Shown here: piece by piece, positions 5,676-61,718 of the stretch
Position numbering within the stretch: the first letter of the stretch is position 1
Layout of the letters: each line of letters opens with the position of its first letter
Origin: Agrobacterium fabrum str. C58
GTDB lineage: Bacteria; Pseudomonadota; Alphaproteobacteria; Rhizobiales; Rhizobiaceae
Assembly: GCF_000092025.1 (NCBI RefSeq)
Contig: NC_003063.2
Location: 1,169,001 to 1,233,000 of the forward strand
Direction of reading: 5' to 3'
Length of the DNA stretch: 64,000 nt
Notes under the pieces: generated by a model
The model's database searches: none
What the model was told of the DNA's origin: nothing
What the model saw: only the letters and a program-made list of their open reading frames with translations
Made by a program: the position numbers and the translations under genes

Positions 5676-7154
5676 CTAACCTTGGGTTGCGGTATCGCGC
5701 ATGCGCCGTGATTTCACCATCCCAAGGATTTTTCCCAGCAGCGCCCTTTCGGTCAGCAGGATCAGGACGCCATAGATAACGCCACCCGCGGCGGCACCGA
5801 CAAGGACCTGAAGGGTGGCGCTCGGAATATGACCGGAAAGGGCATGAAGCAGATAACGTACCGCAACGGCCATGATCAGCGCCGCGATCATCGGCCTGCT
5901 GCTGACATAGAGGCCGCGGAAAAACGGTGTATCGCTTGCCTTGAACACGGCCCAGGAATAGGCGACCAAAGTCACCGCATTGACGATGCAGAGCCACACC
6001 ATAGCGTCGATCAGCGTGCCATAAAGGGCGGCAAGCCACACCGCAACCGTGGTGACGATGGCGCGGACCGTCGCGGACCAGAACAGCACACGGCCGTACC
6101 CAGCGCCTTTGAGATAGGGGATGAAGGTGCTGCAGGGCGTGAGAATGGCCTTGGAAAGGGCAAGAAGACCGAGAACCGGCCAGGCATAAGCCCAGTTCTG
6201 CCCGAAGATCACGAGCATGGCCGGCTCGGCGACGGCCCAGAGGCCGAACATCATCGGCGCGAGCAGTACGGTCAGCACCTGCGTGCTGAACATCAGGGCA
6301 TCGCGGCGGCGCTGGGGATCGTCCATCATACGGCTGAAGGCCGGAAACAGAACGCCCATGACGGCCGACAGAACCACCTGATTGGGGATGCTCGCAAAAC
6401 GGTTGGAGGCGGAATAGGCGCCGGCATCGGCAAGACCGAGATGCCTGGCGATGACCACCATCGGCGACTGGAAGGTAACGAAATTAGCGATTTCCGAGCC
6501 CATCAGCCCGGAACTGAAGCCGAGAAGCGGCACCAGTCGGCGCGGTTTCATGACGAAACGCGGGCAATAGCGCGAGACGGCGTAAAGACCGACAAGCCGG
6601 ATGAGGGCCGCGGCAAAAAGCTGGATGATAAGCGCCCAGACGCCGAAGCCGAGAAGCGCCAGAGCCACCGCCACCACCGCCGCAATGCTTTCCGAAGCCA
6701 TGCTCCAGAGCGCGTCCTTGCTGAAGTTCATCCGCCGGGCCAAGAGCGAATAGGCGACATCGCCGGCCAGCTGCAATGGAATGAGGAAGGCCATGATGCG
6801 CAGCAGGTAGGCGCTTTCCACCGCGCCCAGCAGCCCGCCGAAAAATTCCGCGAAGATGTAGAGCACGGCGGCCATGGTGCAGGAGATCGCCAGATTGGCC
6901 CAGAAGACGGTATGGATCGTATCCATATCCTCTTCCTTCTCGACGATCAGCGCAGAGGTCAGTCCCGCGCCGGCAATCATGGTCAGGAACTGTACAACCG
7001 TTAGTCCTACCGCCACCACCCCGAACTCTTCCGGAGAGAGGAGACGTGCGAGGATGGGGACCGTGACAAACTTAAGCCCGAATGTCCCTGTTTTTGATAA
7101 AACGCTCCAGCCGACATTCGTGGTGATGGTCTTTACATTTGGCGCTGGGGGCAT
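5676..7154 (-). CDS. exoT: Succinoglycan repeat-unit flippase ExoT (Wzx/PST family)
   Basis: This 492-residue polytopic protein has about 12-14 hydrophobic helices. It starts with the polysaccharide-transporter signature region (NVGWSVLSKTGTFGLKFVTV, then LARLLSPEEFGVVAVG). ExoT-type proteins flip lipid-linked saccharides or export low-molecular-weight succinoglycan across the inner membrane. The frame is open far upstream into exoW on the other strand, so I place the start at the ATG at 7154, which gives the S. meliloti length (494) and leaves a 117-base divergent promoter region with exoW. A second ATG at 7214 is possible. Confidence 0.9.
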   Translation of the reverse strand: MPPAPNVKTITTNVGWSVLSKTGTFGLKFVTVPILARLLSPEEFGVVAVGLTVVQFLTMIAGAGLTSALIVEKEEDMDTIHTVFWANLAISCTMAAVLYIFAEFFGGLLGAVESAYLLRIMAFLIPLQLAGDVAYSLLARRMNFSKDALWSMASESIAAVVAVALALLGFGVWALIIQLFAAALIRLVGLYAVSRYCPRFVMKPRRLVPLLGFSSGLMGSEIANFVTFQSPMVVIARHLGLADAGAYSASNRFASIPNQVVLSAVMGVLFPAFSRMMDDPQRRRDALMFSTQVLTVLLAPMMFGLWAVAEPAMLVIFGQNWAYAWPVLGLLALSKAILTPCSTFIPYLKGAGYGRVLFWSATVRAIVTTVAVWLAALYGTLIDAMVWLCIVNAVTLVAYSWAVFKASDTPFFRGLYVSSRPMIAALIMAVAVRYLLHALSGHIPSATLQVLVGAAAGGVIYGVLILLTERALLGKILGMVKSRRMRDTATQG

Positions 7155-7271: not shown

Positions 7272-8237
7272 ATGGCAAGATTTACTGTCGTCATTCCCTA
7301 CTACCAAAAGCAGCACGGTGTCTTGGGACGTGCACTCGCATCGGTTTTTGCGCAGACTTACCAGGACTTCGATCTTGTCATCGTCGATGACGAATCGCCA
7401 TACCCGATCGATCAGGAGCTTGCGGAAATTTCGCAGGAACAGAAAGACCGGATTGTTGTCATTAAGCAGGCCAATGCCGGTCCGGGCGGTGCGCGCAACA
7501 CGGGTCTCGACCATGTGCCTGATGGCACAGACTATGTCGCCTTTCTCGATTCCGACGATATGTGGACCCCCGATCATCTGCGCAATGCCGCCTTCGCGCT
7601 TAACACCTATGGCGGCGAATGCTACTGGGCATCCATGCAGGCAAGTGACGAATTTTATTATCATTTCGCCATTTCCGAGCTGGAGAAGAATGAGGGTGCG
7701 GCACGACTTTCCGAGAAACCGCTGGTGATCGAACTGCCGGATCTCGCAAGCGTCATGCTGCGCAACTGGAGCTTCCTGCATCTCTCCTGCATGGTGATCG
7801 GCCGTCCTCTTTTCGAGAAGATCCGCTTCGATCCAGCGCTCAGACTGGCGGCCGAAGATGTGCTGTTTTTCTGTGATTCCATCCTCGCATCGAAGCGCAC
7901 GCTGCTGTGTGACGATGCCGGCGCGATGCGCGGGATGGGCGTCAACATCTTTCACAGCATCGACAATACCTCGCCGGAATTCCTGCGCCAGCAGTTCAAT
8001 ACCTGGGTGGCGCTCGATACGCTGGAGGGGCGTTTTTCACGCCGGCCGGCCGATGTGGCCTCGATTGCTTCCTATAAAAACACCGCCCGCAAACAGGCGC
8101 TGTGGAGCCAGGCCGGCAATCTGAAACGGCGCAGGGCACCTCAATTCGGGCTGCTGTTCAAATGGGCGATGCGTGATCCCGCACTGCTGCGTGCCGCTTT
8201 CGAGCTCGGTGCAGGAAAAATCGTCCGCTCGAGATGA
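7272..8237 (+). CDS. exoW: Succinoglycan glucosyltransferase ExoW
   Basis: This 321-residue GT2 enzyme has the N-terminal strand FTVVIPYYQKQHGVLGRAL, DLVIVDDESPYPI and the DxD site FLDSDDMW near residue 95. ExoW adds the last (seventh) glucose of the succinoglycan side chain, the residue that ExoV then decorates. The ATG at 7272 has AAGGGGCG seven bases upstream; an earlier in-frame codon at 7248 lacks one. It is transcribed divergently from exoT and is followed after 51 bases by exoV, so the two probably form one operon. Length agrees with S. meliloti ExoW (about 319). Confidence 0.9.
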   Translation: MARFTVVIPYYQKQHGVLGRALASVFAQTYQDFDLVIVDDESPYPIDQELAEISQEQKDRIVVIKQANAGPGGARNTGLDHVPDGTDYVAFLDSDDMWTPDHLRNAAFALNTYGGECYWASMQASDEFYYHFAISELEKNEGAARLSEKPLVIELPDLASVMLRNWSFLHLSCMVIGRPLFEKIRFDPALRLAAEDVLFFCDSILASKRTLLCDDAGAMRGMGVNIFHSIDNTSPEFLRQQFNTWVALDTLEGRFSRRPADVASIASYKNTARKQALWSQAGNLKRRRAPQFGLLFKWAMRDPALLRAAFELGAGKIVRSR

Positions 8238-10590: not shown

Positions 10591-10869
10591 TCACATATCG
10601 GTGAGTTTGGCACCATGCGGCGGGGCGCTTTTGACCGTGTCCGTCGCAATTGTCTCGGCGTTGCGATCCAGCAAGAAGGTTTCCCGCATCCGCCGTTTTT
10701 CCCTGCTGACAAGAACCAGAATCCCAATAAAATAACCGACCTGCAGAATGACGGCACAGATGAGGGTCTGGATGAAGGCGGTATAGAACGATCCGTGGAT
10801 GAAGTATGTGGCAACCGCAAAAGCAAGCAATGCACCGATCATGCTGAAAAAAACACGAGGTGCATACAT
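10591..10869 (-). CDS. exoX: Exopolysaccharide production repressor ExoX
   Basis: This 92-residue inner-membrane protein has two hydrophobic helices (about residues 5-22 and 28-52) and a basic cytosolic tail (REKRRMRETFLLDRN). It matches ExoX/Psi, small proteins that post-translationally lower exopolysaccharide synthesis by acting on the priming galactosyltransferase ExoY. A strong GGGAGGAG lies upstream of the ATG at 10869. In Sinorhizobium exoX sits next to exoY; here exoY is absent and the next gene is unrelated, so ExoX is separated from its target gene. Confidence 0.85.
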   Translation of the reverse strand: MYAPRVFFSMIGALLAFAVATYFIHGSFYTAFIQTLICAVILQVGYFIGILVLVSREKRRMRETFLLDRNAETIATDTVKSAPPHGAKLTDM

Positions 10870-11213
10870 GGTGCTCTCCTCCCGAGAACGATTTCTCCGT
10901 TTTTGGCTGCGCTGCGGCATTTTTTTTCTTTGCAAGAAATATACGATGAGACCGGTGTTGTTTCAACACACATATATACTTCTTCTAACGCCAACCGCAT
11001 GAAATTTCGGTAATCCGGATTGGTAAATTGCTCGGTAATCGGTGACTTGCCCCCAATCGGGGCTGCCGCGCGACGCCGTTTCATGTTTCTCAAAGGGCAT
11101 GAAACCCTTCTCACGCAGCGATTGCAGGCTGTCTTACGCGTTCTGCAGACTTCGTTAACCATCTCGCCTTTAAAAAGTCGGTATTGATTCCTCAGCAAGA
11201 GCAAGGTGCCCGC
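10870..11213. promoter_or_regulatory. Divergent promoter region of exoX with nested inverted repeats
   Basis: This 344-base non-coding stretch lies between exoX (minus) and a DUF6074 gene (plus). It contains AT-rich sequence at about 10920-11000 suited to a promoter. A structured part holds CCCC-AAT-CGGGG (11051-11062) and GTTTCATG/CATGAAAC arms (11078-11085 and 11098-11105). The second arm is also the loop of a competing AAGGG/CCCTT hairpin. No protein-coding frame is convincing here. Confidence 0.45.
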
Positions 11214-53586: not shown

Positions 53587-53755
53587 GTTTTTCGCGGAAC
53601 GGCTTGCCGCTGTCTGCGTTTAGTCCGGAATTGCCTGAAGACATGTCCTTGCGCCGGAAAGCCTTTTGAAAAGGCGGGCATGGGTTCGGGTATCAACAAC
53701 ACTAGCCCACCGGCGCTTTGTATTCGCCCCCGCGCGGATGCATTCAGGAGATTTC

Positions 53756-55456
53756 ATGTCAGTATCTACCCCCACGCGCGACGATTTCGCAGCGCTTCTC
53801 GAAGAATCCTTTGCCTCTAACGATCTTGCCGAAGGCTATGTTGCCAAGGGTATCGTCACGGCAATCGAGAAGGACGTCGCGATCGTTGACGTCGGTCTGA
53901 AGGTCGAAGGTCGCGTTCCGCTCAAGGAATTCGGCGCGAAGTCCAAAGACGGCACGCTGAAGGTCGGCGACGAAGTCGAAGTTTACGTCGAGCGCATCGA
54001 AAATGCTCTGGGCGAAGCCGTTCTGTCGCGCGAGAAGGCTCGCCGCGAAGAAAGCTGGGTCAAGCTCGAAGCCAAGTTCGAAGCTGGCGAGCGCGTCGAA
54101 GGCGTTATCTTCAACCAGGTCAAGGGTGGTTTCACCGTCGATCTGGACGGCGCTGTTGCCTTCCTTCCGCGTTCGCAGGTCGACATCCGTCCGATCCGCG
54201 ACGTTACCCCGCTGATGCACAACCCGCAGCCCTTCGAAATCCTCAAGATGGACAAGCGTCGCGGCAACATCGTTGTTTCTCGCCGTACGGTTCTCGAAGA
54301 GTCGCGTGCCGAGCAGCGTTCTGAAATCGTTCAGAACCTCGAAGAAGGCCAGGTTGTTGACGGCGTCGTCAAGAACATCACCGACTACGGTGCGTTCGTT
54401 GACCTCGGCGGCATCGACGGCCTGCTGCACGTTACCGACATGGCATGGCGCCGCGTCAACCATCCTTCGGAAATCCTCAACATTGGCCAGCAGGTCAAGG
54501 TTCAGATCATCCGCATCAACCAGGAAACCCACCGTATCTCGCTCGGCATGAAGCAGCTCGAGTCCGATCCGTGGGATGGCATCTCCGCCAAGTACCCGGT
54601 TGGCAAGAAGATCTCCGGTACGGTCACGAACATCACCGACTACGGCGCATTCGTTGAGCTGGAGCCGGGCATCGAAGGCCTGATCCACATTTCAGAAATG
54701 TCCTGGACCAAGAAGAACGTCCATCCCGGCAAGATCCTGTCCACGAGCCAGGAAGTCGACGTTGTCGTTCTCGAAGTCGATCCGTCCAAGCGCCGTATCT
54801 CGCTCGGCCTCAAGCAGACGCTGGAAAACCCGTGGCAGGCATTTGCCTTCAGCCATCCGGCCGGCACTGAAGTCGAAGGCGAAGTCAAGAACAAGACCGA
54901 ATTCGGCCTGTTCATTGGCCTCGAAGGCGATGTTGACGGCATGGTTCACCTGTCGGATCTCGACTGGAACCGTCCGGGCGAACAGGTCATCGAAGAGTTC
55001 AACAAGGGTGACGTGGTCAAGGCTGTCGTTCTCGATGTTGACGTCGAGAAGGAACGCATCTCGCTCGGCATCAAGCAGCTCGGCAAGGATGCTGTCGGTG
55101 AAGCCGCAACCTCCGGCGACCTGCGCAAGAACGCAGTCGTTTCGTGCGAAGTCATCGCCGTTAACGACGGTGGCGTGGAAGTGAAGCTCGTCAACCACGA
55201 GGACATCACCTCCTTCATCCGCCGCAACGACCTCGCACGCGATCGTGACGATCAGCGTCCGGAGCGTTTCGCAGTTGGCCAGGTTTTCGACGCCCGCGTC
55301 GTCAACTTCTCGAAGAAGGACCGCAAGGTCATGCTTTCGATCAAGGCTCTGGAAATCGCTGAAGAGAAGGAAGCCGTCGCACAGTTCGGTTCGTCCGACT
55401 CGGGCGCTTCGCTCGGCGACATCCTCGGCGCGGCTCTGAAGAACCGCGGCGAATAA
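53756..55456 (+). CDS. rpsA: 30S ribosomal protein S1
   Basis: This 566-residue protein carries six S1 RNA-binding repeats. Clear starts are at GYVAKGIVTAIEKDVAIVDVG (near 24, split as GYVAKGIVTA and IEKDVAIVDVG), VDGVVKNITDYGAFVDLGG near 202, ISGTVTNITDYGAFVELEPG near 287 and VEGEVKNKTEFGLFIGLEG near 375, plus weaker repeats 1-2 and 6. It recruits mRNA to the 30S subunit. Codon use is strongly biased, as expected for a highly expressed gene. CAGGAG precedes the ATG at 53756; longer in-frame starts lack a site. Confidence 0.98.
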   Translation: MSVSTPTRDDFAALLEESFASNDLAEGYVAKGIVTAIEKDVAIVDVGLKVEGRVPLKEFGAKSKDGTLKVGDEVEVYVERIENALGEAVLSREKARREESWVKLEAKFEAGERVEGVIFNQVKGGFTVDLDGAVAFLPRSQVDIRPIRDVTPLMHNPQPFEILKMDKRRGNIVVSRRTVLEESRAEQRSEIVQNLEEGQVVDGVVKNITDYGAFVDLGGIDGLLHVTDMAWRRVNHPSEILNIGQQVKVQIIRINQETHRISLGMKQLESDPWDGISAKYPVGKKISGTVTNITDYGAFVELEPGIEGLIHISEMSWTKKNVHPGKILSTSQEVDVVVLEVDPSKRRISLGLKQTLENPWQAFAFSHPAGTEVEGEVKNKTEFGLFIGLEGDVDGMVHLSDLDWNRPGEQVIEEFNKGDVVKAVVLDVDVEKERISLGIKQLGKDAVGEAATSGDLRKNAVVSCEVIAVNDGGVEVKLVNHEDITSFIRRNDLARDRDDQRPERFAVGQVFDARVVNFSKKDRKVMLSIKALEIAEEKEAVAQFGSSDSGASLGDILGAALKNRGE

Positions 55457-55555: not shown

Positions 55556-57097
55556 TCAGAGCATGCCGCTCATCTTGAGATAATAATTCTCCGCGCTGTC
55601 GTCGGAAGCCGCTGCGGGCGTGCTTTCCCGCTCGTCGATCGCGTCATTGGCGGTGATGCGTTCTTCCGTTTCCCCCTGATCATCGGAATTGTCAGCGCCT
55701 GCCTCGGCCTCGTCTTCTGCTTCATCCTCGGAAAATGGACCGCCGCCACGGGGTGGTGTTTCCGATCCATGATCTTCATCTGCCGGCGGATAAGCGACGA
55801 GCGGCAATGGCGTGCCGTCTTTTACGAGAGCCGCGGCGATCAGGGATTGCGAGGCCGATTGCTCCAGCATGGCCATTCTCGCCTCTGGATCCAATGTGCC
55901 GCGGGGCAACGGCTGGGCATCGGATCGATGGGGCAAGGTCTCAGTGTCGTCGCCCGAAGGGCGGGCATTGGCCGTGGCGAAGGCGGCTTTTTCGGCGGGT
56001 TGGTCTTCGAGAGGCTGCGCCGGAACGCCCTGTGGCGTGATCGGAAGCTGCAGTGTTGCGTTCGCTCTGGTGGGGAGTTTGCCGGTCGCGGCGGCCAGCA
56101 GAAGATTGGCGACGGTCTCGCCGTCGCCTTCCGCCTGGCCGGCGAGGGACGGCAAGACCGGGCGGGCTTCCTTTTGCTCGATCTTCATCATCTCGCGATG
56201 CAAAAGGGTAGGGCGTGTCTCGCTGGTCTCCGCGCGTGGTAGATTGGCCGGGCGCGGCTCTGCCGGGGCCTCTTTGGGAGCGCTGTCCGTCTGTAGTGGA
56301 AGCGGACGCAGGGTGTTTTCCGTTTTTGCACCGGGTTTCGTCGCATCGCCGGGCAATTCGGCTGTGTCGGCAGGCGGGGCGGCAAGAGGGACGCGCACAT
56401 CCGGCTGTGCGGTCAGCGCCGCCACCGTGGCCTTTACTGCTGCGCCGCTGAAGGCAAGCGGGCCGATGAGCAGGGGCAGCAGCCGGCTCGCTATCGCGGA
56501 ATTTGCCGGCTGTGCCGTCGCGGTCGGGTTCTGTCGGCTTTCCGCATTCTGGCTCGGAGCGTTCGGCTGTTTCGGCTGGACGGGCTGTGCAGGAGCGGGA
56601 TTGTTCTGCTGATAGGAAGACACGACCGCCTTGGTCGCGAGATCCATTCCCCTGTATCGAGAAAGCTCGATCAGTAGCGCCAGGCGGGCGGCATCCGGCC
56701 CGGTCGGCTGTTTCAGGATTTCGGCGAGCATCGCAAGGGTCAGGCCCTGCAAGGCTTTTCCGACCTGCTGTTCCAGCGCCATACGCTGGGCAGCGGGCAG
56801 GGTGCGCAGGGCCTCCGTCAGCCGCGTCACATAGGTCTCGATGGCTTCACCATCCCGCCGGGGCAGGTTCATCAGCTTGCCCAGCGCTTCCGCCAGAACT
56901 GCCGTGCTGCGGGAAAGCTGGAATTCGCTGGTAAGGGAGGCGATTGCGGCGCGGGCGAAAAGGCTGCTGCTATTTTCAGGGACAGGATTGCTCGTCTGCG
57001 GTGGCACGGCGTCCTTCACCTGTGCACGCGGTGTCAGCGGTAAGTTCGTGCCATAGGCGGCATCGGCAGCCGCAATTTTCTGTACAGGCGGTAACAT
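55556..57097 (-). CDS. Uncharacterised protein C of the 55.5-59 kb locus (helical repeat, Pro/Ala-rich, acidic tail)
   Basis: I do not recognise this 513-residue protein. Residues about 66-137 (TAVLAEALGKLMNLP, TRLTEALRTLP and LTLAMLAEILKQPTGPDAAR) are helical and can be aligned with a repeat in the protein encoded at 57713-58942. Residues about 160-440 are Pro/Ala/Thr-rich and probably disordered; about 460-500 is very acidic; the end is DDSAENYYLKMSGML. The low-complexity centre resembles FliK-type hook-length proteins in composition only. The ATG at 57097 has GGAG seven bases upstream; an in-frame ATG at 57220 is an alternative. Confidence 0.75.
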   Translation of the reverse strand: MLPPVQKIAAADAAYGTNLPLTPRAQVKDAVPPQTSNPVPENSSSLFARAAIASLTSEFQLSRSTAVLAEALGKLMNLPRRDGEAIETYVTRLTEALRTLPAAQRMALEQQVGKALQGLTLAMLAEILKQPTGPDAARLALLIELSRYRGMDLATKAVVSSYQQNNPAPAQPVQPKQPNAPSQNAESRQNPTATAQPANSAIASRLLPLLIGPLAFSGAAVKATVAALTAQPDVRVPLAAPPADTAELPGDATKPGAKTENTLRPLPLQTDSAPKEAPAEPRPANLPRAETSETRPTLLHREMMKIEQKEARPVLPSLAGQAEGDGETVANLLLAAATGKLPTRANATLQLPITPQGVPAQPLEDQPAEKAAFATANARPSGDDTETLPHRSDAQPLPRGTLDPEARMAMLEQSASQSLIAAALVKDGTPLPLVAYPPADEDHGSETPPRGGGPFSEDEAEDEAEAGADNSDDQGETEERITANDAIDERESTPAAASDDSAENYYLKMSGML

Positions 57098-57356
57098 GCT
57101 GCGCTCCGTTCCTATCGGTGACCGCGGCTGGCTGCGAAAGGACCAATCCCCATTGGCTCTCTGATCCGCATCTGGCTTGAATGTTGAAAAATCGCCGCGC
57201 CGGTGATGTACAGGTGTCATCTCGCCCGCTCATGCGGGAGCGCCATATGCGCCCCGGCCGTTATGCCGGTTTCTGCGCATATAGAATCATCTGGTTCAAT
57301 CTTGGCTTGCAGATATTAAGATTTGGCTAACCAACGCATTGCGCACGACGGCGCGC

Positions 57357-57665
57357 TCAGGGTGAGATACCGATGAACATGCGGTAAAGGCCATTATCGT
57401 CTGAGTTGACAGAGGAAATATGGTCGGGGTCGCTGGTTGCGGCCTCAAAAGCCTCTGGTGGCATGGCGTCGAGCCAGCTTGCTTTGGGAAGGCTTCGTTC
57501 CGGTTGCATCTCCACGGGCGCGATGGGCTGGTCCTCGTCACCGGCTGCGGCAAAGGCAGCGTCATCGGGAACGAGTGGCGGGGCGGCCATGGACAGCAGG
57601 GCCTCCGCCGCATCGGGCTCGTTGTCGTAAACGACGCTGGGGGATAGGCCGGAAATATCGGTCAT
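57357..57665 (-). CDS. Uncharacterised small acidic protein A with DDNGLY tail
   Basis: I do not recognise this ~102-residue acidic protein. It is Asp/Glu/Ala/Pro-rich with no membrane segment or signal. Its C-terminus, SDDNGLYRMFIGISP, shares DDNGLY with the tail of the protein encoded just upstream (57713-58942). The start is uncertain: ATG 57665 or GTG 57677, both with weak ribosome-binding sites. It is 47 bases downstream of that gene and 259 bases upstream of the third gene. Confidence 0.65.
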   Translation of the reverse strand: MTDISGLSPSVVYDNEPDAAEALLSMAAPPLVPDDAAFAAAGDEDQPIAPVEMQPERSLPKASWLDAMPPEAFEAATSDPDHISSVNSDDNGLYRMFIGISP

Positions 57666-57712
57666 GTCTGAACTCACATCATGTTTCGCTCAAGTGACGT
57701 CGCAAGCGGCAA

Positions 57713-58942
57713 TCATGCCGCCTTTTTCTTCAGCAGTTCGTAAAGACCATTATCGTCGATCGAGATCGGCAGAATCGCAGTGCGGGCGTCTTTAACGAGC
57801 CCCTGCGCATCGAGCAGTTTTTTGGCCTCGTTTTCCGCATCGGCGGGATTGGCGGCCGCCTCTGTGCTTTCGGGTTCATTTTCGTTTTCAGCCGGGGCGG
57901 CTTCTTCCTTCGGTGTCGCCGCAAGCACGGAGATCAGGGCGGTTTCCGGTGAAATATCGACCGGCTCCTGCGTGTCGGCACCTTCGGCTTTGTCGTTCTT
58001 GGAAGCATCGATATGCTCCTTCACGACGTCCTGAAGTTCCTGCACGTCTTCAAGCTTGCCCTGCACATCGAGGGCCTTGATATCTTTTTCGCGCTCGGCC
58101 TTCACTTCGGCATCGTTGATTTCGCCAATGCGTTCTTCACCACGCTCGGCCTGCAACTCTTCCTTGGTCTTCGGGTCTGCGACGTCTTCGAGGCGCTGGA
58201 TGATCTTCAGAGTTTCCCGCGTCATGAAGCGGGTGCCCTGCGCCTGATCGTTCAGGGCATCCTTCACGGCACGCGCCTCGTCGCCATAGGGGTTGGCGAT
58301 GGCGGCGATCATCTGCCGGGCGGAGATGCCGAGTTGTTTGAGGCCGGTGGAATCTTCGAGATCGCTGACATTTTTCGGCAAGGTCGCGCGCATCGCCATG
58401 ATGGCTTTCGACATCTGCTCGCCGAAATCCTCTTCCTTGCCTGTCAGGCCGGCACCCTTTGCGATACGGGCGGCGAGGGCGGCCATGGGATCGGTCTTGG
58501 CGGTGACGCCGTTGTTCAGCACCTCCGTGACCTGCGTTTCCGAAACGCCGAAGGAGATCAGGGAAATCGGTGTGGCTTTTCCCTGCGCATCGGTCTTTTC
58601 GAAATTGTCGGTGAGGGTCAGCGCATCCTGAAGTCGCCGGGCGAAGGAGAAACTCGACTCGTCTGCGTCCTGCGTGACGCCGAGAGCGGAGGAAAAGCGC
58701 GAAACGAGGGAGGCGAAAGCATCGGCGTCCGGCTTCATGATGCCGAACAGGTAGGAACTTATCTTTTCATTGGCGACGCGATGGCTTTCATCCGGCTGCG
58801 GCTGGGTCTTGACCGCATCGTCCTTTTTGGTGCCGTTCGCCTTTTCACGCTCTTCGCGCTGGCGGTCCTCGATGGCTTCCACCATCGACCGCATGAGGTC
58901 GTTGACTGCAATGCCCGCCGTCTGCTGTAGCGGAGTGATCAT
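57713..58942 (-). CDS. Uncharacterised protein B of the 55.5-59 kb locus (two helical repeats, DDNGLY tail)
   Basis: I do not recognise this 409-residue cytosolic protein. Two ~70-residue helical segments look like tandem repeats: about 76-145 (ASLVSRFSSALGVT to LISFGVSETQVTEVLNNG) and about 153-222 (AALAARIAKGAGLT to LKQLGISARQMIAAIANPYG). The second also aligns with residues 66-137 of the 55556-57097 product. A charged coiled region follows (about 245-320), then an acidic Ala/Pro/Glu-rich linker and the tail ISIDDNGLYELLKKKAA. It is first of three minus-strand genes. GGGGA lies nine bases before the ATG. Confidence 0.75.
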   Translation of the reverse strand: MITPLQQTAGIAVNDLMRSMVEAIEDRQREEREKANGTKKDDAVKTQPQPDESHRVANEKISSYLFGIMKPDADAFASLVSRFSSALGVTQDADESSFSFARRLQDALTLTDNFEKTDAQGKATPISLISFGVSETQVTEVLNNGVTAKTDPMAALAARIAKGAGLTGKEEDFGEQMSKAIMAMRATLPKNVSDLEDSTGLKQLGISARQMIAAIANPYGDEARAVKDALNDQAQGTRFMTRETLKIIQRLEDVADPKTKEELQAERGEERIGEINDAEVKAEREKDIKALDVQGKLEDVQELQDVVKEHIDASKNDKAEGADTQEPVDISPETALISVLAATPKEEAAPAENENEPESTEAAANPADAENEAKKLLDAQGLVKDARTAILPISIDDNGLYELLKKKAA

Positions 58943-59026: not shown

Positions 59027-59653
59027 TCAGCTATGGGCGAAAATATCCGTCTCGTCCCAGCCGAGAAGATCAAGCTTCGCACGGGTCGGCAGAAAGGCGA
59101 AACAGGCGTCGGCATGCTCGATGCGGCCATCGCGGATAAGACGCGCCGTCAGCTTGTCGCGCAGGGCATGCAGATAGAGCACGTCGGAGGCGGCATATTC
59201 GAGCTGCGCGGGCGACAGCGTCTCGGCCGCCCAGTCGGAGGATTGCTGCGCCTTGGAAATATCGACTTCCAGCATTTCCTTGAGATTGTCCTTCAGCCCA
59301 TGCCGATCTGTGTAGGTGCGGCAGAGGCGCGAGGCGATCTTGGTGCAGAAGACCGGCGTGGTCGTGACCCCGAAGGTGTGGAACAGAACGGCGATATCGA
59401 AACGGCCATAGTGAAAAATCTTCTGGCGGGCGGGATCAGCCAACATGTGGACGAGGTTCGGGGCTTGCTTCTGGCCGGCCGCGATGCGGATGACATCAGC
59501 CGTGCCGTCGCCGGACGAAAGCTGCACGACGCAGAGACGGTCGCGTCGCGGCACCAGCCCCAGCGTTTCCGTATCGATGGCGATGGCGCCCTTGTAGCGC
59601 GCGGCATCTTCGGCGGAAATATCGCCTTCGTGATAACGGATGGTGGCTGCCAT
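59027..59653 (-). CDS. RNase D family 3'-5' exonuclease
   Basis: This 208-residue DEDD-family exonuclease shows Exo I in IAIDTETLGL near residue 24, Exo II in KIFHYGRFDIAVL near 78 and Exo III YAASDVLYLHAL near 152 (Y-x3-D). It lacks the HRDC domains of full-length RNase D, as usual for the short alphaproteobacterial form that trims structured RNA 3' ends. CCGGAG precedes the ATG. It stands alone, 84 bases from the neighbouring uncharacterised gene. Confidence 0.92.
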   Translation of the reverse strand: MAATIRYHEGDISAEDAARYKGAIAIDTETLGLVPRRDRLCVVQLSSGDGTADVIRIAAGQKQAPNLVHMLADPARQKIFHYGRFDIAVLFHTFGVTTTPVFCTKIASRLCRTYTDRHGLKDNLKEMLEVDISKAQQSSDWAAETLSPAQLEYAASDVLYLHALRDKLTARLIRDGRIEHADACFAFLPTRAKLDLLGWDETDIFAHS

Positions 59654-61255: not shown

Positions 61256-61300
61256 GAGACTTGCTCTGGAAAAAATCGCTGAGGCCGCTATATTCAAATC

Positions 61301-61416
61301 ATCGAAGCGACGCACTCCTCCTCCCAGTGTCGCTCGATGTGGATCGGTGGTACTCCTCCTCCCAATCGCCGATCAAGTTTGAAGCCTGCCGCACCTCCTC
61401 CCGCGGCAGGCTTTTT
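61301..61416 (+). ncRNA. Three-hairpin sRNA with CCUCCUCCC loops (alpha-r14/CcsR-like)
   Basis: Three successive hairpins each expose CCTCCTCCC: loop 1 at 61317-61325 (closed by CACT/AGTG and AGCGA/TCGCT), loop 2 at 61355-61363 (closed by GATCGG/CCGATC) and loop 3 at 61394-61402 (closed by a nine-pair GCCTGCCGC/GCGGCAGGC stem). The last is followed by TTTTT, making it the terminator. The motif is an anti-Shine-Dalgarno sequence, as in alpha-r14 (NfeR1) sRNAs of Sinorhizobium and the CcsR/cuckoo RNAs of Rhodobacter. A -10-like CTATAT at 61288-61293 gives a start near 61300. The rest of the 542-base gap holds no gene I can support. Confidence 0.85.
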
Positions 61417-61718
61417 CCTTTTCTGGGCATCTTTTTCTTTGGAAGTTTTTTTGTCGGCCCCGCTTTATGCGGCAGGCTACGCTATACCCCTTAGATTTCC
61501 GGGGGATTTCAGATTTACACGTCAAGGCAAGCTGTGCGGGAATCGGGCCTGCGTCGATCACGATTTCGTTATGTCTAGATGAATATGCACAGTTTTGTGG
61601 CGCTGCACCCTGCCGGCCCATTGCTTAGGCCCATGCCTGTGTTTAAGCATGTGGAAAAGAACGCTTGGGAGGCTGCCGGCACGCTTGTGTCCGTGAGCCC
61701 GAAAGCGGCGGGGAGAGA

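Follow-up and report, generated by a model that had tools for sequence, protein, structure and literature searches.

What are the three acidic proteins encoded side by side on contig NC_003063.2 of Agrobacterium fabrum C58, between the genes that we take from their sequence to be rnd and rpsA, and what do they have in common? In the window analysed (the whole stretch of 64,000 nucleotides, positions 1,169,001 to 1,233,000 of the contig) the order along the minus strand is rnd, P3 (57713-58942, 409 amino acids), P2 (57357-57665, 102 amino acids) and P1 (55556-57097, 513 amino acids), all three frames being on this strand. The original prediction, made from the sequence by eye, was right in the coordinates and lengths of the three products and in their single direction, and did not give the strand. 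Growth in the Rhizobiaceae is unipolar, and their asymmetric division is under the control of CtrA. Hypothetical proteins make up part of the CtrA regulon of Sinorhizobium meliloti (PMC4433202). The locus provides candidates of this kind in which a domain, a tail and a promoter box are each conserved, and it may contain a new receptor-peptide pair that functions in the cell cycle of bacteria associated with plants.

The element that joins P1 and P3 is a helical domain of about 85 residues, found in two copies in P3 (repeat 1, residues 74-150, 58493-58723; repeat 2, residues 151-235, 58238-58492; both on the minus strand) and in one copy in P1 (residues 65-145, 56663-56905, minus strand). BLASTP detected no similarity between P1 and P3 (best E value 0.49). 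A profile-profile comparison, proposed together with the original prediction, was performed with hhalign on the family alignments, and the P1 domain matched repeat 2 of P3 with probabilities of 93.7 and 95.4 in two runs and repeat 1 more weakly (72 and 87), the two repeats matching each other with 97.6 and 97.7; in the first of these runs, as in the core-profile and tail counts given below, some genomes were counted twice (e.g. L023/L073, L027/L108, L034/L131). The maximum reached by 100 column-shuffled versions of repeat 2 was 3.05, and the reversed repeat 2 gave 0.11.

The same relationship was recovered by one-sided searches. A profile built from P3-type rows only, with no P1 row in it, matched P1 at E=2.8e-5 when run against the own genome; P1-type frames were recovered elsewhere too, in ten genomes, one of which gave no better than 0.0014. 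Among 7,284 frames, the core profile of P3-type rows found 242 stretches, 175 of P3 class and 67 of P1 class (49 of these 67 below E 1e-3), and it had no match in any frame outside these two classes. Cut to five rows of the short family (the short relatives considered below), the profile reached 24 P1-class frames at E<=1, just five of them below 1e-3, and matched no unrelated frame. Finally, a 51-row core profile, which includes the rows used for the P3-type and short-family profiles, recovered both P3 repeats and the P1 copy from the own genome (5.67 Mb in four contigs), the next best match being only at E 0.19. Taken together, these sequence comparisons show that P1 and P3 have a core domain of common descent; the likeness of the helical segments, which had been spotted by eye and which BLASTP could not see, is a real homology.

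In the AlphaFold models, P3 residues 72-232 had a predicted local distance difference test score (pLDDT) of about 90, with helices forming two repeats, and 124 of the 409 residues of this protein fell below 50. The long P1 frame had 389 of 554 residues below this value, its mean pLDDT being 44.8, with about 55-70 in the helical domain and near 79 in the tail helix. The disorder predicted originally was thus borne out for P1 but not for most of P3, which is confidently folded over residues 72-232. Foldseek matched no known fold, the domain having been modelled as part of the longer proteins.

The second element is a C-terminal tail of the form D[DE]xG[IL]Y that is common to P3, which ends in SIDDNGLYELLKKKAA (57716-57763, minus strand), and P2, whose tail ISSVNSDDNGLYRMFIGISP (57360-57419, minus strand) ends in NSDDNGLYRMFIGISP. 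In two alignments, of 30 and of 24 sequences, D396 and G399 of P3 showed no variation and Tyr401 hardly any. Of 100 P3-class frames, 95 carried the strict pattern; it was also present in 44 of 18,377 others, these 44 being 21 P2 frames, 17 rnd frames (through the loosened letters) and six other frames. In a genome-wide search, the DNA form of the pattern, GAYGANNNNGGNNTNTAY, which also permits F, M and V for I/L, was found at 18 places, four of them within 14 codons of a stop. These four belonged to P2, P3 and two frames of 11 and 46 codons, i.e. in frames longer than 46 codons only P2 and P3 carry the tail at the stop in the whole genome. The P2 alignment set was selected by the tail, what makes the tail conservation seen within it partly circular; all ten weak non-P2 matches of the P2 profile were P3 proteins (10/10, E 0.0017-0.073). 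Among 15 relatives that are short or distant, 13 close with a tail of the same kind (e.g. DEIGIYSF, DDIGLYSIHP, DELGLYGG), which in three of the 13 differs by a single letter, at the position of the Gly or of the Ile/Leu; L148 and L196 lack it. The idea of a conserved tail carried by proteins of unequal length therefore stands for P2, P3 and the short relatives.

P1 is a different case. Its end had been read as DDSAENYYLKM, which stops short at KM; the full tail is DDSAENYYLKMSGML (55559-55603, minus strand), and Tyr506 within it is one of three columns of P1 that are invariant in 23 diverse sequences. A relaxed P1-tail pattern was found in 83 of 90 P1 and in 8 of 6,058 other frames. A matrix derived from the tails of P2, P3 and the short family brought only 5 of 92 P1 to 4 bits, a value reached by 38 of 6,042 other frames, and with the P1-tail matrix 57 of 6,118 other frames scored as high as the median P2, and 401 as high as the median P3 (the training windows for these matrices were chosen by loose tail patterns). 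Neither type of matrix picks out the other tail clearly, and P1 has a conserved tail of its own kind; the single tail originally proposed for the three proteins holds for P2 and P3 and does not clearly hold for P1. Actually, P3 has a further terminal feature, since 71 of 94 P3 end in -AA, against 81 of 3,416 other frames and 0 of 90 P1. Endings of this type are typical of ClpXP substrates. The DxxGxY motif is kept where the end is not -AA, in P2, in the short relatives and in the Sinorhizobium-type P3 (AGSQ or AGSEQ). At the DNA level, the 18 nucleotides coding for DDNGLY in P2 and P3 differ by a single base, compatible both with a recent conversion and with shared codon use.

The third element is found upstream of the genes. 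A CtrA-type box with one mismatch, TTAAGCACTGATTTA, begins 67 nucleotides before the ATG of P3 (58995-59009, minus strand) and another one, TTAGCCAAATCTTAA, also with one mismatch, 233 nucleotides before that of P1 (57316-57330, minus strand). We scanned 80 named loci, selected for the presence of P3, for TTAA-N7-TTAA with at most one mismatch within 400 nucleotides upstream. With nine P3-class rows lacking a recognised start and fragments under 280 (P3) or 480 (P1) residues left out, boxes were found upstream of P1 in 75 of 76 cases (2 exact) and of P3 in 69 of 77 (37 exact), both genes being boxed in 64 of 73 loci. The control genes gave 1/79 (rnd), 0/73 (cmk), 6/77 (rpsA) and 11/41 (a gene that we take to be DUF6665-like), and the presumably nicotinamide-phosphoribosyltransferase-like (nampt-like) gene, divergent from P1 and with an upstream region in common with it, had the box in 33/33. 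Kinship among the genomes inflates these counts; in thinned sets the box was kept in 17 of 18 (P1) and 8 of 9 (P3). Other spacings of the half-sites reached at most 24/76 for P1 and 18/77 for P3, indicating that the boxes are spacing-specific; the shuffle control of the scan preserves base composition only. In the window, the only TTAR-N7-TTAA is in the gap between P2 and P1 (0.36 expected), and for the longer form TTAA-N7-YTAACC the expectation is 0.03. Among the short relatives, 7 of 14 had a box upstream compared with 187 of 2,393 control windows, which were random and mostly coding, the starts of the short-relative genes being approximate.

This type of box agrees with the CtrA consensus used for A. 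tumefaciens, TTAANNNNNNGTTAAC (PMC7003649), and with the one used for S. meliloti, TAA-N7-TTAAC (PMC3616915). In the CtrA study of S. meliloti (PMC4433202), 19 of the direct targets and 24 of the indirect ones are hypothetical, and orthologues of the proteins of this locus may already be among them.

Between its box and its start codon P1 has in addition a leader hairpin, CCCGC-ATGA-GCGGG (57225-57238, minus strand). GC-rich hairpins with ATGA as the loop, a loop pattern that was noticed before the counting, were found in 54 of 76 P1 leaders from many genera, and in control leaders in 0/77 (P3), 1/79 (rnd), 1/77 (rpsA) and 6/73 (cmk). Five of the six stem pairs showed changes on both sides in 11 rows, which were chosen for having the hairpin. 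No Rfam family was found for the hairpin, which is possibly an RNA regulatory element.

How might these elements work together? P1, P2 and P3 are members of an undescribed protein family of the Rhizobiaceae, which seems to be under the control of the cell-cycle regulator CtrA. We tentatively favour an explanation in which they would be cytoplasmic, CtrA-timed scaffolds or adaptors with a peptide for docking, a proposal that is possible without being probable. They would be synthesised in the phase of the cell cycle defined by CtrA, and the core domains of P3 and P1 would interact with one another or with the same surface. Through the D[DE]xG[IL]Y peptide, already read in the original prediction as a potential docking or export signal, P3 and P2 would dock onto one shared receptor; P2, which has this peptide and no detectable core domain, might compete with P3 or tune it, and the terminal -AA of P3 may let a ClpXP-type protease clear it. 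The process served could be polar growth, division or motility. A more ambitious version is rather unlikely in our opinion. It would see here a whole undescribed cell-cycle module of the Rhizobiaceae with a new superfamily of helical domains, a C-terminal D[DE]xG[IL]Y motif of its own and a dedicated receptor, switched on by CtrA and cleared by proteolysis, with P3 bridging, P1 spanning and P2 competing, and with small single-domain relatives as the ancestral form that was elaborated at the rnd-rpsA locus.

Several observations weigh against the favoured proposal. In the window genome neither box is exact, each having one mismatch, and 7 of the 14 short relatives lack a box. Among the predicted structures, that of P1 is poor, and in that of P3 the confidence is low for the tail. 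P3 and P2 are dispensable, given that P1 was found without an adjoining P3 in L214 and L215 (of the genus of the window) and in L150 and L151 (genus g29), and P2 without P3 in L216 and L217, two loci found by a profile search that included the tail; P1, P2 and P3 are combinable parts and not an obligate trio. Furthermore, the P1 tail differs from those of P3 and P2, what makes one receptor for all three unlikely.

Other explanations have to be weighed against this one. The tails could be mainly proteolytic handles, the P3 (and P2) peptide being read by a protease or adaptor and P2 shielding P3, or some other client, as an anti-adaptor. The frequent -AA of P3, of the type seen in ClpXP substrates, and the CtrA-type control, which suggests a timed turnover, would fit well, but DxxGxY is conserved in proteins with other endings as well, and no P1 ends in -AA; we judge this explanation unlikely. 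Less likely again is a place for the proteins in the flagellar programme, as CtrA-controlled accessory proteins or export substrates, with P1 as a FliK-like regulator of length or export. P1 has a disordered Pro/Ala-rich middle, as does FliK with its Pro-rich one, a UniRef homologue (P0142) is labelled 'Flagellar hook-length control protein', and motility genes of S. meliloti are under CtrA control (PMC4433202). However, none of 23 P1 relatives matched Flg_hook (PF02120) at E<=0.1, a different protein of the genome, encoded on another contig, matches Flg_hook above the cut-off, and housekeeping genes adjoin the locus genes in the loci examined.

It is very improbable that these are exported or surface proteins with an acidic-Tyr tail serving as secretion signal or being phosphorylated in a host. 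The very end of the chain, with its acidic and aliphatic residues and its conserved Tyr, would suit such a role, but no secretion genes adjoined in the loci whose frames were inspected, and the tail is found also on short relatives in other neighbourhoods. As for a mere chance likeness of unrelated low-complexity proteins of similar composition, its probability is close to negligible. The blindness of BLASTP, the scarcity of low E values with the five-row profile and the mismatch between the P1 tail and those of P2 and P3 could be expected from it, but neither the 100 shuffles nor the reversed profile came near the real score and no unrelated frame was matched among the 7,284, so that for the core domain and the P2/P3 tail this explanation is already contradicted.

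Among known systems, the scaffold or adaptor proposal finds its parallels in different places. Like CtrA regulon genes of the Rhizobiaceae, among which they are candidate members, P1 and P3 have conserved TTAA-N7-TTAA-type boxes at steady upstream positions. PopZ- and PodJ-type polar scaffolds of alphaproteobacteria are similar in their acidic disordered stretches, helical modules, small conserved C-terminal elements and link to the cell cycle, but no such family appeared when P1, P2, P3 and two sets of relatives (23 and 24) were scanned against Pfam-A. The C-terminal hub peptides of FtsZ and SSB are also short, acidic-hydrophobic and located at the extreme end after a disordered linker, although the motif of the P2/P3 tail is different.

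That the three proteins could not be recognised, as had been noted from the start, was confirmed, since no convincing match to a characterised family was obtained. Pfam and NCBIfam scans of P1, P2 and P3 gave weak matches only, and no convincing relative of the core domain was found in Pfam, NCBIfam, the PDB sequences or Foldseek. The closest named proteins come from Agrobacterium, and the listed homologues, where named, are mostly 'hypothetical' or 'uncharacterized', the exceptional labels including one 'TolA-binding protein' and two 'phosphopantetheine adenylyltransferase'. No paper on P1, P2 or P3 was found in a literature search with presumed locus tags, which papers using other tags may escape. 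A likeness to capsid (Gag) proteins was considered: P1 matched Retrotrans_gag at E 0.3, Gag_p24_C was found in Pfam scans of 2 of 24 P3-type members (best E 0.0028), all eight PDB matches of the P1 profile at E<=1 were capsid chains (best 0.061) and P3 had one capsid chain at 0.45. With the domain-only 51-row profile, prion, apolipoprotein and other helical chains outranked the capsid chains, Retrotrans_gag matched 1 of 51 members (0.023), and no capsid was among the Foldseek matches listed. We provisionally read this relation as a chance motif likeness. Two other weak Pfam matches, to DUF4129 (best 0.00096, in 5 of the 51 members) and to DUF2780 (best 0.00065, in 2 of them), are near chance for the number of scans.

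The distribution of the genes was surveyed at several levels. In the class, 13 of 240 genomes had a match at E<=0.01, the own genome included, and the best of the other 12 was at 1.4e-4. The surveys of the order, in which few candidates were scored per genome, gave at least 4, at least 5 and at least 7 of 297 genomes. Within the family, P3 was found in 18 of 151 genomes with a single sequence as query, and the short-family profile matched in 33 of 151. The genes next to the short relatives vary from genome to genome in the frames read, so that the partner of the tail, if any, is likely encoded elsewhere. Of the relatives without the Tyr tail, both more distant and found by P3-type profiles, L196 lies at 5731-6909 (E 5.8e-14) and L148 at 7359-7952 (2e-15), the latter in another family of the order. 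Tandem duplication recurs, with two P3-type genes in a row in L098, L099 and L031 and two short relatives in L037.

Around P3 itself, the 80 loci contain a P1-class frame in 78 cases and rpsA in 77, and rnd is upstream on the same strand in most of them, being elsewhere or on the other strand in Sinorhizobium/Ensifer loci. The DUF6665-like gene is present in 41 and the nicotinamide-phosphoribosyltransferase-like gene in 33 of the 80, on the opposite strand where they are placed between P3 and P1. These intervening genes and the separate boxes of P1 and P3 mean that the three genes need not form one operon. In Rhizobium sp. RCAM05350 (L113, 6923-8330 and 10395-12403) P3 and P1 are broken into several frames, perhaps by sequencing errors or decay.

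In the window, rnd (59027-59653, minus strand) flanks the locus upstream of P3, and rpsA (53666-55456, plus strand) is convergent with the P1 side. The rpsA gene of S. meliloti is SMc00335 (PMC2912261). P3 is built from an N-terminal helix, the two core-domain repeats, a long helix, a disordered linker, the DDNGLY tail and the -AA end. P2, in which no core domain was found, has an alternative GTG start at 57677 that would give 106 amino acids, and its motif PKASWLDAMPP (57456-57488, minus strand) is kept across the P2 alignment. P1 starts with MLPP and continues with its one core domain, a long disordered acidic, Pro- and Ala-rich linker containing the conserved short motif LVKDGTPLPLVAYPPA (55781-55828, minus strand), and its own tail; the longer frame of 554 amino acids exists, and the homologues begin at the inner ATG. 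All three proteins are acidic as had been predicted, with net charges of -21 (P1), -16 (P2) and -27 (P3). The three genes are under purifying selection, with dN/dS between 0.10 and 0.27 in four comparisons for each gene (12 in all, of which three had a dS above 2). Elsewhere in the window, two Rfam families scored above the gathering score, Atu_L1 (RF02504) at 10740-10913 and ar14 (RF02344) at 61297-61418, both on the plus strand.

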